From contig JARQTN010000015.1 in assembly GCA_029976695.1 (NCBI GenBank), forward strand, positions 1-37,298: a stretch of 37,298 nucleotides of DNA, given 5' to 3'. A model generated the notes under the pieces. The model was not told where the DNA came from and made no database searches. It saw only the letters and a program-made list of their open reading frames with translations. The position numbers were made by a program, and so were the translations under genes. Source of the stretch: Lewinellaceae bacterium. GTDB taxonomy: Bacteria; Bacteroidota; Bacteroidia; Chitinophagales; Saprospiraceae. Every line of letters begins with the position of its first letter. Position 1 is the stretch's first letter. Shown here piece after piece: positions 14,216-19,857 of the stretch.

Positions 14216-15010
14216 ATGGCAGTAAAAATCAGACTTCAGAGAAAAGGGCGTACCAAAAGGCCTTTTTACCACATTGTCGTCGCTGATGCAAGAGCTCCCC
14301 GCGACGGCCGTTTCATTGAAAAACTAGGTGTTTATAACCCGATGACAAAGCCCGCAACCATCGAGCTGGACCAGATGCGTGCATACGAATGGCTCACCAT
14401 GGGTGCACAGCCAACAGATACAGCAAGGGCAATTCTCCGTTTCAAGGGCGTCTTGAAGTATAAGCACCTGATGCGCGGCGTAAAGAAAGGCGCCCTGACC
14501 CAGGAAGAAGCAGATGCACAATGGAAGGAGTGGATCGCCCAGAAAGAGGCGAAAGTGGCTGCTCGCAAGGAAGCAACCGAGAAGGAGCAAGCAGATTGGC
14601 TTGCCCGGATAGACGGTACAGTAAAAGCGGTGAAAAAGGCAGAGAGCACGGTTTCTGCAGATGATGAAGGCAAAAACCCGCAGGCAGTTGCACAATCCCA
14701 GAAGACGCTGGCTGAACTCGCCGCGGAAAGTGCACCTGCTGAACTCGAGATCACAGAAGAAAAACCAGTACAGGAAGAAGCACAGCCGGCCCGGGAAACT
14801 GCGGAAGCAGAGGCCCCGGCCGATCAAGTTGAAGAAGAAGTCCCGGTCGAAGAACCAAAATCTGAGGCTCCTGCCGAACCGGCTGAGGAAGCAGCTCCTG
14901 CCGAGGAGGAACCAAAGGCAGAGGCCCATGCAGAAGAACCGGCTGCCACGGAAGCAGAACAGGCACAATCTGAAGACGATGATTCCGAGGTAAAATCAGA
15001 AGAAGAATAA
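14216..15010 (+). CDS. rpsP: Small ribosomal subunit protein bS16 with long acidic C-terminal extension
   Basis: A 264-residue protein. Residues 1 to about 82 are a normal S16: [42 protein letters not shown], and W-L[10 protein letters not shown]. S16 helps assemble the 30S body. E. coli S16 has 82 residues, so about 180 residues are extra. The extension is first a charged helical stretch (about 95-145, rich in Lys, Glu and Ala), then a low-complexity Glu/Ala/Pro-rich tail ending [11 protein letters not shown]. Moderate extensions are known in Bacteroidota S16; this one is long. Single-gene unit with its own promoter (14115-14144) and terminator (15049-15080). Confidence 0.95.
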
Positions 15011-15048: not shown

Positions 15049-15080
15049 AAAAGCCGACCCGAATAAGGGCCGGCTTTTTT
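15049..15080 (+). terminator. Intrinsic terminator after rpsP
   Basis: AAAAGCCG (15049-15056) pairs with CGGCTTTT within 15071-15080. After one mismatch the stem continues with CCC against GGG around a 6-nt GAATAA loop, and the right arm ends in TTTTTT. It lies 38 nt after the rpsP stop. Confidence 0.85.
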
Positions 15081-15115: not shown

Positions 15116-15123
15116 TATATTTG
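15116..15123 (+). promoter_or_regulatory. Candidate -7 element upstream of the 15222 operon
   Basis: TATATTTG is a perfect TAnnTTTG -7 box, 99 nt before the ATG at 15222. No TTTG -33 box is seen at 18-20 bp upstream, so support is partial. The predicted start of transcription (about 15130) would put most of the repeat structure at 15136-15181 into the leader RNA. Confidence 0.45.
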
Positions 15124-15144
15124 ATCACTTAGAAATTGATCACT
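15121..15144 (+). repeat. Direct repeat of TTGATCACT, 15-bp period
   Basis: TTGATCACT occurs at 15121-15129 and again at 15136-15144. Each copy contains the palindrome TGATCA. The first copy overlaps the candidate -7 box at 15116-15123, so the pair could be an operator. The same 9-mer also occurs upstream of the exonuclease gene (9987-9995). Confidence 0.6.
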
Positions 15145-15145
15145 A

Positions 15146-15181
15146 AATACCTAGTAAGGCTTCTGCGCGTTACTAGGTATT
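15146..15181 (+). repeat. Perfect 12-bp inverted repeat in the leader of the 15222 operon
   Basis: AATACCTAGTAA (15146-15157) and TTACTAGGTATT (15170-15181) are exact reverse complements separated by a 12-nt GC-richer loop. It is not followed by a T-run, so it is not an ordinary terminator. It could be a leader hairpin or a protein-binding operator, 40 nt before the start codon. Confidence 0.8.
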
Positions 15182-15221
15182 CATTTATTAAAGAAAAAGG
15201 TTATACAAAAAGCTGATTCAT

Positions 15222-16604
15222 ATGGAAGCACTGGATAAAAAGTACAGCATCGAACTGGAGAGTATCAAGGGCGCTATTCAAAGCTCGGATCTACTGGCGA
15301 AATATCTCGATGAGGAGGAGGAAGAAGATTACCAGGAATTGCGCCTCGCTTTTGAGCCGCAGATCGAGGAAGTCTATCAAAAGGTGGCTGACGAAAACCC
15401 GCTGCAATTGCTGAGCCTTGAACAACTCTTGCTCGATCCGGGCTTTGAGGGGATGTATATCTCCAAGATCCTTGGTTTTGCCGTGCTCAGGGGCGAGATT
15501 GACGACAACTACAGGTACAAAAGGCCGCAGAAACAGTTTAAGGATATCCTGCTCTCCATTTGCAATTCCTCAAATTTTGACCTCATCAGGAAAAGGATCG
15601 GGCAAGGTGTCCAGCTTGGTTTTGCACTGAGCAGCGATATCTGGATCACGAACCTGCTGAACCAGATCGTCAATCCGAAGGTGCGCCATTTCCTTGAATC
15701 CCTCAACATGGATAAATTCAGGGATGCATATGAACGGAAAGTCATTTACAGGCGCTATTCCAAGCAATTCCAGGCATATCATTTCCAGTCTGCTGAATTC
15801 CCGAAAACAGTTTCGGAATTGAAGATGAACTTCAGCGCCTTGCATACATTCCTGATCTACCGGATCCAGCACGGGATGCAGAACCACTCACTCGTATCCA
15901 GGATAACGGAGTTTTTGGAAAACGAAAAATTCCAGGGGACGGTGGAATACCTTCAGTTGATGACTTTGTTTACTATGTTTTTTGACCACGGAGACCACAG
16001 GGAATGGATCAGGAAAAGGTTTAACGAAGAGCGGCAAACCCCGGGATTTGTTGAGAAATACTTCAATTACCTGCTTACCCTGCTAGAGGACCGGGTGGAA
16101 ATCACCAAAGAAGCAGATGCACGGATCCTGAATATTCTGGATACAACGGTGGAGGATGACCTCACCAGTTACTACAAGGTCATGGAAACTGTGGACCTGA
16201 AAGGGTATATCCACGAAGATTCCATCGAGGCAGTCCGCTCGTTTTATGACAGGCATGCGGGCCTAAGCGTGGTAAATGAATGCGTCCGGTGGGCGATCTT
16301 CTCTGATTTTGAGAAACTGATGACCAATCTCCCGGTGGAGGATTATGCAACCTATTTCGAGATCAATAAAACATTTGCCACCTACATCAATATTTTCGGG
16401 AACCAGGAGTTTAACCAGTATGTCAAGAAGCTTTGCCTGGATTATGTCAAAAAGCTCCTGAAAAAATATACGGACAAGCGGGGCAAGGATTACCAGGATA
16501 TTAAAAAGTTCGTTTCAGCCTCGTTCCTTGATCTCGGATTCATGAAAGAAAAGGAGATTGTCGAATTGTTCAAGACCAGGCGGAAAAGGAAAGCAACCAC
16601 ATAA
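15222..16604 (+). CDS. Uncharacterised soluble all-helical protein
   Basis: A 460-residue protein that I do not recognise. No signal peptide or membrane segment is visible. The sequence is strongly charged and looks helical throughout, with an acidic Glu run near 32-36 (DEEEEED), several Phe/Tyr/Leu-rich amphipathic stretches (for example MNFSALHTFLIYRIQHGMQ and YLQLMTLFTMFFDHGDH), and a basic end (KTRRKRKATT). Spacing of these stretches is compatible with helical repeats, but no repeat motif is certain. It is the first gene of a tight run: 6 nt to the HU-CCDC81/SPOR gene, then the COG2509 flavoprotein and DoxX-like genes. The leader contains the direct and inverted repeats at 15121-15181. 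Link with a SPOR-domain protein hints at an envelope or division connection (inference only). Confidence 0.8.
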   Translation: MEALDKKYSIELESIKGAIQSSDLLAKYLDEEEEEDYQELRLAFEPQIEEVYQKVADENPLQLLSLEQLLLDPGFEGMYISKILGFAVLRGEIDDNYRYKRPQKQFKDILLSICNSSNFDLIRKRIGQGVQLGFALSSDIWITNLLNQIVNPKVRHFLESLNMDKFRDAYERKVIYRRYSKQFQAYHFQSAEFPKTVSELKMNFSALHTFLIYRIQHGMQNHSLVSRITEFLENEKFQGTVEYLQLMTLFTMFFDHGDHREWIRKRFNEERQTPGFVEKYFNYLLTLLEDRVEITKEADARILNILDTTVEDDLTSYYKVMETVDLKGYIHEDSIEAVRSFYDRHAGLSVVNECVRWAIFSDFEKLMTNLPVEDYATYFEINKTFATYINIFGNQEFNQYVKKLCLDYVKKLLKKYTDKRGKDYQDIKKFVSASFLDLGFMKEKEIVELFKTRRKRKATT

Positions 16605-16610
16605 TCAACG

Positions 16611-17855
16611 TTGAAGGAGTCAATACCATTTTATGTGCTACGGTTCCTGGATCAGCTGCCAGAATTGCATCTTCCGGGACTGGGCAGCTTTTACCGGGTA
16701 GAGACTCCAGCCCGCGTAGACCTGGAAGCAAAAAGCGTTTATCCCCCTTCCCGGAAGAACCGGTTTGAATATGATGAAGAGGTCGATGCCTCGCTTTTTG
16801 AAGGCTTCCTGGAATATCAGACCGGAAAACCACGAAAATTCTGCAGGCAGGCGGTCCGTTCGTTTGTCAATGACCTGCTGCTCCGCCTGAAAAAGGATGG
16901 TTCGGTTTCCTACCCCCATTTCGGGACTTTCAAAACAGATGCGCAATCCAATATCCGGTTTCTGTCGGACCCTGCTTATGAGAATGCCAGGTATATGGCA
17001 TTCCGGCCGGTATCGCTTCAAATATACATGCCAGGAGAGCCTGAACAGGAGCACCCGTCGAGCACGCAGCATGATCAGCCAGCAATCTCTACAGCACCCG
17101 TTGAAACTGTAGAGACCGGGTCCGGGACGAGCCCGGTTGATCATCAACCGGCGCAAATCATACACCAGGCAGGAGACGCAGTGGCGACCAGCGTGGAAGA
17201 TACTCGCGAAACGGGTGTTTCAACCGCCGACCAAAACGGGCAACCAAACACGGCCGGTAGATCAGGAACAGGCAAAAAAATCCCTGTCTGGCCCTGGTAT
17301 TACGGGAGCATCCTGCTCCTGCTATTGGTCATGGCATTATTGTTTCTATATGATGGGGTGCCTGCGCCCTTTTTTGACAGCCAGGAGGTGGTGGGGGAGG
17401 TTGTGGATCCTGAACCGGGGAATGTCCTTGAGGGCAGGGTTGATACGCCTTTTTCGCAAGGCCCTGTTGAAAACAGGACTGAAGCTGGAGGGACTACTGA
17501 AGCGGGATTGCCACCGGCAACTGATGAGGGGCAATCCTCAGGAGCAGGCAGTGAAGAGGCCTCTGTGGATGATCACCCCGAAGCGCCCTCCGGAATTGCA
17601 GATCCCTACGCCATGGCGGACTGCATGGTCGTCGTCGGTGCTTTCCGGGAAAAGATGAACGTCACGCGCATGCAGGCCAGGCTGGAAGACATGGGGTACA
17701 TGCCCCATCTGATGGAAAAGGGAAGCTTGACACTCGTCGGGGTAAAAAGGCCCTGCCGGACTGCTGAATTGAGATCCGTTCTGTACATGCTGAGAAATGA
17801 AATTGAAGGTGGGTCATGGGTCTTGCGGATTGCAGGGTCGCCCCCGCCTGAATAA
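16611..17855 (+). CDS. HU-CCDC81-like and SPOR-domain membrane protein
   Basis: A 414-residue protein with three parts. Residues 1 to about 135 resemble the HU-CCDC81 domain pair of Bacteroidota (L-x-L-P-G-L-G-S-F, then V-S-Y-P-H-F-G-T-F). A Ser/Thr/Gln-rich linker leads to one transmembrane helix at about 226-246 (YYGSILLLLLVMALLFLY). After an acidic linker, a SPOR-like domain occupies about 333-408 (M-V-V-V-G-A-F-R-E-K-x-N-V-T-R-M-Q-A-R-L). SPOR domains bind denuded septal peptidoglycan, so a cell-division or envelope role is plausible. The start must be TTG at 16611: the in-frame TAA of the preceding gene lies 6 nt upstream and the next ATG is over 100 codons in. It shares the reading frame of the upstream gene. 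Confidence 0.75.
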   Translation: MKESIPFYVLRFLDQLPELHLPGLGSFYRVETPARVDLEAKSVYPPSRKNRFEYDEEVDASLFEGFLEYQTGKPRKFCRQAVRSFVNDLLLRLKKDGSVSYPHFGTFKTDAQSNIRFLSDPAYENARYMAFRPVSLQIYMPGEPEQEHPSSTQHDQPAISTAPVETVETGSGTSPVDHQPAQIIHQAGDAVATSVEDTRETGVSTADQNGQPNTAGRSGTGKKIPVWPWYYGSILLLLLVMALLFLYDGVPAPFFDSQEVVGEVVDPEPGNVLEGRVDTPFSQGPVENRTEAGGTTEAGLPPATDEGQSSGAGSEEASVDDHPEAPSGIADPYAMADCMVVVGAFREKMNVTRMQARLEDMGYMPHLMEKGSLTLVGVKRPCRTAELRSVLYMLRNEIEGGSWVLRIAGSPPPE

Positions 17856-17867
17856 GAAAAGCCTGAT

Positions 17868-19430
17868 ATGCTGAAACAAATCGATATCCGCCTGCTCCCT
17901 GAAGCAGCTGGTGATCCGGGTAAGATCATCAGGAAAGCATCACAAAAAACCGGGGTCCCGGTGGATCGGATTCTGGATTATCAGATCGACAGGCGATCCA
18001 TCGATGCGCGGGGAAGCCAGGTGCTCATGCAGCTGCGAGTCACGATCTCGGATGAGCAGCTTGGATCACGGATTCCTGACATGATGAAGTTGCTGAGGAA
18101 TGTATCCTCTGCAGAGGAGGTCATCATCGTCGGTGCGGGACCGGCCGGGTATTTCGCTGCCCTTGAGTTGATAGAACTCGGATACAAACCGGTCATTCTG
18201 GAACGGGGGAAAGACGTGCGCGCAAGGCGAAAAGACCTCCGGGCGATCCAGCAGGACGGGATTGTCAACCCCCACTCGAATTATTGCTTTGGGGAAGGCG
18301 GCGCGGGTACATACTCGGATGGCAAATTGTATACGCGTTCCCACAAGCGCGGGAGCATCAGCAAGATCCTTAACTGGCTTGTTGCACATGGCGCGAAAGA
18401 GGATATCCTCATCGATGCCCACCCGCATATCGGGTCAAACAAATTGCCCAAAATTGTCCAGGCCATTCGGGAAACAATAGAAAACCATGGGGGGGAGGTG
18501 CATTTCAACAGCCATGTGCAAGACTTTTTCCTGAAAGGGAAGCAGGTCGAAGGCGTGATTTATAACGAGGGTCAGTTTCGAAAGGCCAGCCGGGTGATCC
18601 TGGCGACGGGGCATTCTGCCCGGGATATCTTCAATCTGTTGGAAAAGCGCGGTATCTGTTTCGAATTCAAGCCTTTTGCACTGGGCGTCCGCATCGAACA
18701 CCCCCAGGCCCTGATCGACGAGATCCAGTACAGCCAGCGGCCGCGCAGCCCGTATCTTCCTGCCTCCAGCTATGCCCTTACCTGCCAGGTGCAGAAAAGG
18801 GGTGTGTTCTCCTTCTGCATGTGTCCGGGCGGGCTTGTGGTGCCTGCAGCCACGGCACCCGGGGAAATTGTGGTGAACGGCATGTCGCTGTCCCGCCGGG
18901 ATTCGCCATTTGCGAATGCCGGCACAGTGGTCAGTGTTGGTGCTGGCGACATGGGTGTGGATGTCCTCCAGAACCCAATGGCCGGCGTGGAGTTTCAGGC
19001 CGGGGTGGAGAGGCTGATGTTTGGTGCCGGCGACGGGTCACAGAAAGCACCAGCCCAGCGGATCACCGATTTTCTCATTGCCCGGATCTCCGATGATTTG
19101 CCTCCCACTTCCTACATCCCGGGCATCTTCAGTGCCCCTGTTAATGCACTGCTGCCCCACTTCGTTTATGAACACCTGAAAGAGGCCATTCACAAATTTG
19201 ACCGTAAAATGCACGGGTACCTCACTGAAGAGGCTGTTGTCATTGGGACGGAGAGCAGGACCAGCAGCCCGATCCGGATCCCAAGGGACCAGAAAACACT
19301 GATGCACCCGGAAATATCTGGCCTTTTTCCCTGCGGTGAAGGTGCCGGCTATGCAGGTGGCATTGTTTCTGCTGCAATGGATGGTGAACGCGTGGCGAAA
19401 GCTGTTGCGATATCCATTAATTCAAATTGA
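17868..19430 (+). CDS. FAD-dependent oxidoreductase, COG2509 family
   Basis: A 520-residue flavoprotein. An N-terminal domain of about 80 residues (I-D-I-R-L-L-P, then the I-L-D-Y-Q-I-D-R-R-S-I-D-A-R motif of this family) precedes a Rossmann FAD-binding site GAGPAG at 89-94 (EEVIIVGAGPAGYFAALEL), ending in ILERG with the ribose-binding Glu. Further motifs are NYCFGEGGAGTYSDGKLYTR and, at the C-terminus, PCGEGAGYAGGIVSAAMDG, which closes the FAD site. Members are often annotated as uncharacterised FAD-dependent dehydrogenases; the substrate is unknown. It lies 12 nt after the SPOR gene and 1 nt before the DoxX-like gene, so co-transcription is likely. Confidence 0.9.
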   Translation: MLKQIDIRLLPEAAGDPGKIIRKASQKTGVPVDRILDYQIDRRSIDARGSQVLMQLRVTISDEQLGSRIPDMMKLLRNVSSAEEVIIVGAGPAGYFAALELIELGYKPVILERGKDVRARRKDLRAIQQDGIVNPHSNYCFGEGGAGTYSDGKLYTRSHKRGSISKILNWLVAHGAKEDILIDAHPHIGSNKLPKIVQAIRETIENHGGEVHFNSHVQDFFLKGKQVEGVIYNEGQFRKASRVILATGHSARDIFNLLEKRGICFEFKPFALGVRIEHPQALIDEIQYSQRPRSPYLPASSYALTCQVQKRGVFSFCMCPGGLVVPAATAPGEIVVNGMSLSRRDSPFANAGTVVSVGAGDMGVDVLQNPMAGVEFQAGVERLMFGAGDGSQKAPAQRITDFLIARISDDLPPTSYIPGIFSAPVNALLPHFVYEHLKEAIHKFDRKMHGYLTEEAVVIGTESRTSSPIRIPRDQKTLMHPEISGLFPCGEGAGYAGGIVSAAMDGERVAKAVAISINSN

Positions 19431-19431
19431 T

Positions 19432-19857
19432 ATGAAGAATATCTACGATCTGCTCGGACGCATCTTTGTCGCCCTGATCTTCATTTTTGAAGCCGGTGAC
19501 TCCATCGCCTATTTCAGGCAGACCAAGCAAACCATGACAGAGTACGGGATCACCTGGAACCAGGACATCCTCCTGATCGGGGCCATCACGTTTCTTATTA
19601 CAGGCGGGATCTTGCTGCTGATCGGCTACAGGGTCAGGCTTGGTGCATTCCTGCTCCTGCTGTACTGGCTGCCCGTCACGTTTATCGTGCATTCCTTCTG
19701 GAATGACCCTCAGGAAGTGCAGCGTCTGCAGTCGATCTACTTCATGAAGAACCTGGGAATTGCCGGGGCCCTGCTGCTCATCATCGCAAACGGCAGTGGG
19801 AAATTCGGAATCAAGCGCCTGATGGTGGTGTCGCGGATCCGGCCGGATGAAACATAG
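19432..19857 (+). CDS. DoxX-like integral membrane protein
   Basis: A 141-residue protein beginning MKNIYDLLGRIFVALIFIFE, with four hydrophobic segments (about 8-22, 46-62, 68-87, 106-121). The pattern L-L-G-R-I-F-V-A-L-I-F at the start, G-G-x-L-L-L-I-G-Y-R-x-R-L-G-A in the middle, and the late F-M-K-N-L-G-I-A-G-A-L-L-L match the DoxX family. Function of DoxX-family proteins is varied and mostly unknown. The ATG at 19432 follows the flavoprotein stop by one base; a reading that starts at 19336 inside that gene is rejected. It is the last gene of the plus-strand run and converges with the K+ channel gene, 11 nt away. Confidence 0.8.
   Translation: MKNIYDLLGRIFVALIFIFEAGDSIAYFRQTKQTMTEYGITWNQDILLIGAITFLITGGILLLIGYRVRLGAFLLLLYWLPVTFIVHSFWNDPQEVQRLQSIYFMKNLGIAGALLLIIANGSGKFGIKRLMVVSRIRPDET

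Follow-up and report, generated by a model that had tools for sequence, protein, structure and literature searches.

Results

The rpsP-ORF460 region

The window, by which we mean the whole stretch of 37,298 bases that was analyzed, holds between rpsP and an uncharacterized gene that we call ORF460 a short region with several sequence features (Table 1). A first-pass annotation had described a direct repeat, a -7 box and a 12-bp inverted repeat with a 12-nt loop in this region, and our inspection confirmed all of them, position by position.

Table 1. Coordinates of the features between rpsP and ORF460 in the window.
Feature	Position	Strand	Remarks
rpsP (S16)	14216-15010		Pfam PF00886
Terminator-like hairpin and T-run after rpsP, AAAAGCCG ... 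CGGCTTTT then T	15049-15080	+	Read directly
-7 box TATATTTG	15116-15123	+	Fits TAnnTTTG; predicted transcription start about 15128
Two TTGATCACT copies, period 15	15121-15129 and 15136-15144	.	Not conserved in relatives
Leader hairpin, 5' arm AATACCTAGTAAGGC	15146-15160	+	
Leader hairpin, loop TTCTGC	15161-15166	+	
Leader hairpin, 3' arm GCGTTACTAGGTATT	15167-15181	+	
A/U-rich tail CATTTATTAAAGAAAAA	15182-15198	+	The alignment consensus has a similar TTTAAAA-type tail
ORF460	15222-16604	+	460 aa, predicted all-helical; paired with the hairpin across the family

The two arms of the inverted repeat, AATACCTAGTAA (15146-15157) and the exactly complementary TTACTAGGTATT (15170-15181), are spaced by 12 nt, and the 12-mer is found at just these two places within the 4.12-Mb assembly. 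The stem extends past a G.G mismatch through the pairs G15159-C15168 and C15160-G15167, so that the loop proper is reduced to 6 nt. No other perfect inverted repeat of at least 12 bp with a loop of 3-15 nt exists in the window, and none at all appeared in any of 20 dinucleotide shuffles. Folded as RNA, positions 15125-15224 reach -22.3 kcal/mol (z -3.39), a value as low as which was seen in 0 of 200 shuffles. A search of the organism's own genome for extra copies of the hairpin found none.

Upstream, the element at 15049-15080, which is absent from the list produced by the automatic scan, is terminator-like and would separate the leader from rpsP. In the rpsP product itself, the S16 domain is followed by a long C-terminal extension rich in Ala and Glu, and some relatives are apparently alike when compared by eye.

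Conservation and covariation of the hairpin

We sampled up to 300 nt before the ORF460 start codon in each fetched locus. The same hairpin was present upstream of ORF460 homologues in 105 of 113 locus rows (the window is among the rows four times, and some genomes twice) and yielded 90 distinct sequences. Hairpins were picked by the pattern CCT..[AG]GG together with complementarity, a procedure that inflates the share of paired cells and makes the CCT and GG columns invariant by construction. There was no pick in eight rows (L006, L022, L024, L025, L026, L067, L071 and L102), three of which (L026, L071 and L102) hold variants of the hairpin recognizable by eye. The stem lies 20 to 262 nt from the ATG, with a median of 42 nt (at most 50 in 57 of the 90 loci, more than 100 in 15), and spacing this loose makes it less likely that the hairpin simply masks the start site.

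After leaving out 13 of the 90 distinct sequences as near-duplicates, an alignment of 77 (A1) was obtained, in whose 15-pair stem 95.7% of the cells are paired; shifting the partner by one column lowers this share to 43.0 or 53.2%. Both sides have changed in 11 of the 15 pairs, and the number of doubly changed cells (193) compares with 56.9 in column shuffles and was reached in none of 500. When placed on the ORF460 protein tree, changes of Watson-Crick pair type sum to at least 100 over the 11 varying pairs, pointing to many events and not to a few inherited ones. The hairpin hence shows the compensatory changes within a conserved secondary structure that mark a leader RNA. Conservation and covariation of the arms, which the first-pass annotation had named as the check on its proposal, came out in favour of it.

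Because the original pick had required the motif, the test was repeated with a sequence-blind search for Watson-Crick-only hairpins in 103 distinct upstream regions of 150 nt. In 88 of them the best hairpin paired an arm containing CCT with one containing AGG or GGG, against 4 at baseline (one shuffle per upstream region). The median stem score was 10.5 versus 6.0 in the shuffles, with 35 of the 103 above the 99th shuffle percentile; given this modest contrast, it is the shared sequence and the covariation that carry the argument, and not the strength of the stem.

The substitutions also have a direction. In A1 there are 110 G-U cells for 15 A-C cells (81 for 3 in the core), and 65 for 6 in the sequence-blind set. 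A palindrome of double-stranded DNA should show G.T and A.C about equally often, so this imbalance speaks for selection on + strand RNA. In the window, the covariance model scores 54.3 bits on the + strand and 25.8 bits on the - strand; in a few genomes the complement scores almost equal to the + strand, and in G011 it scores higher. Judging from these sequence patterns, the stem is selected as an RNA of the + strand and not as a DNA operator.

Promoter box and direct repeat

A TAnnTTTG box occurs within 150 nt upstream of the stem CCT in 54 of the 90 distinct loci, and at 15-85 nt in 47 of them; over 200 shuffle rounds the corresponding means were 8.8 (maximum 16) and 4.5 (maximum 10). The -7 box is reported to cover -12 to -5 in Flavobacterium psychrophilum (PMC9723704). 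By analogy with mapped promoters, transcription in the window would start at about 15128, in which case the hairpin would span approximately +19 to +54 of a leader of about 94 nt. It is the Bacteroidota -7 box upstream that places the hairpin in the 5' leader; with the start taken from this box, the hairpin falls within the ORF460 5' UTR in species after species.

The two TTGATCACT copies had been proposed as a repressor or activator site. This direct repeat is a less striking feature than the hairpin, for the window has eight exact 9-bp repeats with a period of 10-30 (shuffles: mean 2.2, maximum 5). TGATCA was found within 100 nt upstream of the hairpin in just 3 of the 90 distinct loci, the window included, and for want of conservation we rejected the repeat as an operator. 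In 19 of the 90 loci, L004, L005, L007, L012 and L070 among them, a GGCTATACTTTAATTCTA-like box lies between promoter and hairpin, 27-35 nt before the stem CCT; the window has no such box, and the TTGATCACT copies occupy its place.

Linkage of the hairpin to ORF460

ORF460 relatives are present in 216 of the 248 genomes of the window's family, and the covariance model matches 171 of the 248 at E ≤ 1e-3 (both counts include the window's own genome). ORF460 is carried by 165 of these 171 genomes (Fisher p 4e-10), and by 126 of 126 among those matched at E ≤ 1e-6. Best matches were listed for 143 hairpins, and an ORF460 row was also listed for 115 of them; among these listed matches, 114 of 115 lie upstream of ORF460, on the same strand and within 611 nt, and the remaining one is an opposite-strand call of the same site. 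These positional counts rest on the matches listed, 28 of the 143 having no listed ORF460 row. In 60 genomes, again including the window's own, all matches below E 1e-6 sit at the ORF460 site.

The six matched family genomes that lack ORF460 reach 3.8e-6 at best. One of them, G003, has 15 hairpin matches weaker than E 1e-6. The two matches inspected in these genomes, L133 from G003 and L138 from G005, are hairpins of terminator-like form with T-runs that are long. Among the other genomes of the class, 13 of 292 gave weak matches, the best at 4.7e-5. We inspected eight matches at other places (L133, L138, L139, L141, L142, L147, L148 and L149) and found a T-run of at least five on the matched strand in six, L139 and L142 being the exceptions (L133 was judged by eye). 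Three of these weak matches, L147, L148 and L149, come from other families of the class and are terminator-like, their stems being of the CCTGATAG or CCCGATAG type and their T-runs 7-9 long.

Searches of more than 40 genomes ran with stricter filters, by which weak matches are lost, and 51 of the 216 ORF460 genomes gave no hairpin match at E ≤ 1e-3 under these filters. Twelve of the 51 were fetched. The hairpin is there below threshold in five (L150, L155, L160 and L161 by the model, L156 by eye), about four have a different hairpin (L153 by script; L154, L157 and L159 by eye), and L151, L152 and L158 have no clear hairpin. Neither L154 nor L157 has the CCT/AGG hairpin; by eye, a different long stem, AGTCCATAGTTG...CAACTATGGACT, is common to both at about that position and may have replaced it.

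Comparison with known RNAs

Scored against the gathering thresholds, Rfam 15 gave no match for the site or for any of 12 related loci; its scan of the window returned one tRNA, away from the site. The best permissive match over the site is the Bacteroid-trp leader (RF01692), whose 20.7 bits (gathering score 49) and E of 3.1 are at chance level. A literature search that covered listings and the opening lines of abstracts, mostly of open-access journals, and that reached the 104-RNA survey (PMC2864571) by its listing and a study of 224 candidate RNAs through citations by others, returned no description of the motif. Structured 5' leaders without an Rfam match have already been reported from Bacteroidota (PMC9723704).

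The ORF460 protein

ORF460 has no match in Pfam. Its closest named relatives belong to the Saprospiraceae, such as Phaeodactylibacter, and a profile search of 295 genomes of the class matched three, the window's own and two others of its family, with no homologue outside the family. We found no credible sequence relative in the PDB. The predicted structure is of high confidence (pLDDT 92.7) and all-helical; Foldseek gave no match at E ≤ 0.001 (best 0.018), and the best VIA-align hit has a Z of 9.1, with an rmsd of 11.4 over 235 residues, which falls below the helical-repeat benchmark of about 13, so that we name no fold family. Nor do these fold comparisons point to an RNA-binding family. The protein is acidic overall (net charge -7.4), with basic stretches at residues 151-180 and 391-420 and in the last ten residues. 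The predicted fold and these basic stretches would permit RNA binding without demonstrating it.

Discussion

We propose, with a probability of roughly 0.7, that ORF460 has in this hairpin a cis-acting regulatory leader RNA, one that is carried in the 5' leader of its mRNA and probably serves as a control element for the gene. The best reading of the comparisons made here is that it would represent a new, family-restricted member of an already known kind of cis-acting leader RNA. The first-pass annotation had suggested a regulatory leader hairpin: the conserved leader RNA is borne out by conservation, covariation, strand-specific G-U pairs and the promoter box upstream, while regulation is what we infer from them. 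Riboswitches tend to precede several genes of one pathway. A leader hairpin that belongs to one gene and is absent where that gene is missing looks instead like a feedback leader, and the element would act by binding a protein, with translation, RNA stability or elongation as candidate steps under its control. The likeliest binder would be the ORF460 protein itself, because no other gene was found with the hairpin, and it would exert feedback on its own message in the manner of single-hairpin ribosomal protein leaders. Autoregulation by the ORF460 product is a guess drawn from this one-gene linkage, and we hold it only tentatively. No less speculative is the joint idea that hairpin and 460-aa helical-repeat protein form a new RNA-protein pair, in which the protein would bind the ACCURGUAR stem-loop of its own leader and set its own level; ORF460, which our searches recovered from this bacterial family only, would in that case be an RNA-binding protein of a new type.

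The single-hairpin leaders of ribosomal proteins such as L31 (PMC7247131) are among the closest parallels, since they likewise consist of one 5' leader hairpin at one gene and are restricted to a lineage. They differ in that ORF460 is no known ribosomal protein and that binding is putative here. The S16 leader reported from Flavobacteria (PMC7247131) is likewise a Bacteroidota element near rpsP, but it lies upstream of rpsP, whereas the ORF460 hairpin lies downstream, and also occurs where no S16 was found nearby. Nor is the hairpin itself a leader of a ribosomal protein, for it precedes and goes with ORF460, not S16.

The hairpin could alternatively be a passive element of the mRNA, stabilizing it or providing a ribosome standby site, with no ligand. 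Conservation of the A/U-rich tail would fit, as would the traits reported for initiation in Bacteroidota, which proceeds without a Shine-Dalgarno sequence and favours low structure near the start codon and upstream adenines (PMC6847099); the same can be said of the roughly four genomes in which another stem seemingly serves as replacement. However, the CCT/AGG arms recovered by the sequence-blind pick go beyond what pairing alone would need, and ORF460 is the only gene at which the fetched genomes show the hairpin. That CCT and GG never vary in A1 does not count against a passive element, since the pick had required them. On balance we think this explanation unlikely.

Terminators need a U-tract. 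A second alternative is a transcription attenuator, in which a weak intrinsic terminator in the leader would allow ORF460 to be made only when it is overridden. This would agree with a strong stem near the transcript start, with the terminator-like character of six of the eight model matches inspected at other places, and with T-runs of at least five in the 14 nt after the stem in 15 of 90 copies (for example L077, L092 and L104). Yet the T-runs are of at most four in the other 75 copies (of three in 49), a common tail is UUUGCCUUUAAAA, and no alternative antiterminator pairing was evident by eye in 12 folded leaders. In the window, where the tail reads CATTTATT, no U-tract follows directly upon the stem. 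Intrinsic terminators of Bacteroidota do have similar CCTGATAG-type stems, but those inspected carry long U-tracts and the leader hairpin mostly has none. An attenuator is in our view rather improbable, somewhat more so than a passive element. The earlier remark that nothing here looks like a terminator is accurate for the window and for the 75 copies, and does not extend to the 15 with longer T-runs. At L077 (2907-2963), L092 (905-961) and L104 (2915-2971), T-runs of 6-8 follow the hairpin, which sits 22-26 nt past a -7 box, and a short leader RNA may be made there.

We disfavour, as very improbable, the notion that the hairpin is a 3' end element (a terminator) of rpsP. Of the 67 named loci that extend at least 2.5 kb upstream, 50 do have S16 there, but the hairpin occurs without an S16 match in 16 of the 67 (the loci without S16 and without the hairpin were entered into this count by hand), rpsP has the terminator-like hairpin of its own, the -7 box falls between the two, and genomes without ORF460 have no match at E ≤ 1e-6. 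A palindromic DNA operator for a dimeric regulator, as might be imagined from a perfect inverted repeat that adjoins a promoter box, is the least credible reading of all and is disfavoured by the excess of G-U over A-C cells and by the low score of the opposite strand.

The hairpin is thus a structured RNA for which Rfam 15 gave no match in scans of the window and 12 related loci, and the covariation is strong enough to be accepted without experimental backing. One gene and one hairpin make a system in which the ligand can be sought directly, and it provides a lead on a conserved protein with no Pfam match.

Genes downstream of ORF460

The first-pass annotation had the hairpin controlling an operon at 15222-19857. 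This proved too wide: the link to ORF460 stands, but the other genes of the operon are not common to relatives. Outside the window loci, L010 alone had an HU/SPOR gene near ORF460 and L048 alone a FAD gene, and no DoxX gene was found; the search covered at most 1.5-3 kb downstream, and a diverged HU/SPOR gene could escape it. In 5 of the 14 loci that hold a next ORF, among 15 inspected, that ORF is on the opposite strand. In the window, the protein encoded behind ORF460 (16611-17855, with a TTG start) resembles the HU-like CCDC81 domain PF18175, at 22.8 bits and hence below the cut-off of 35.
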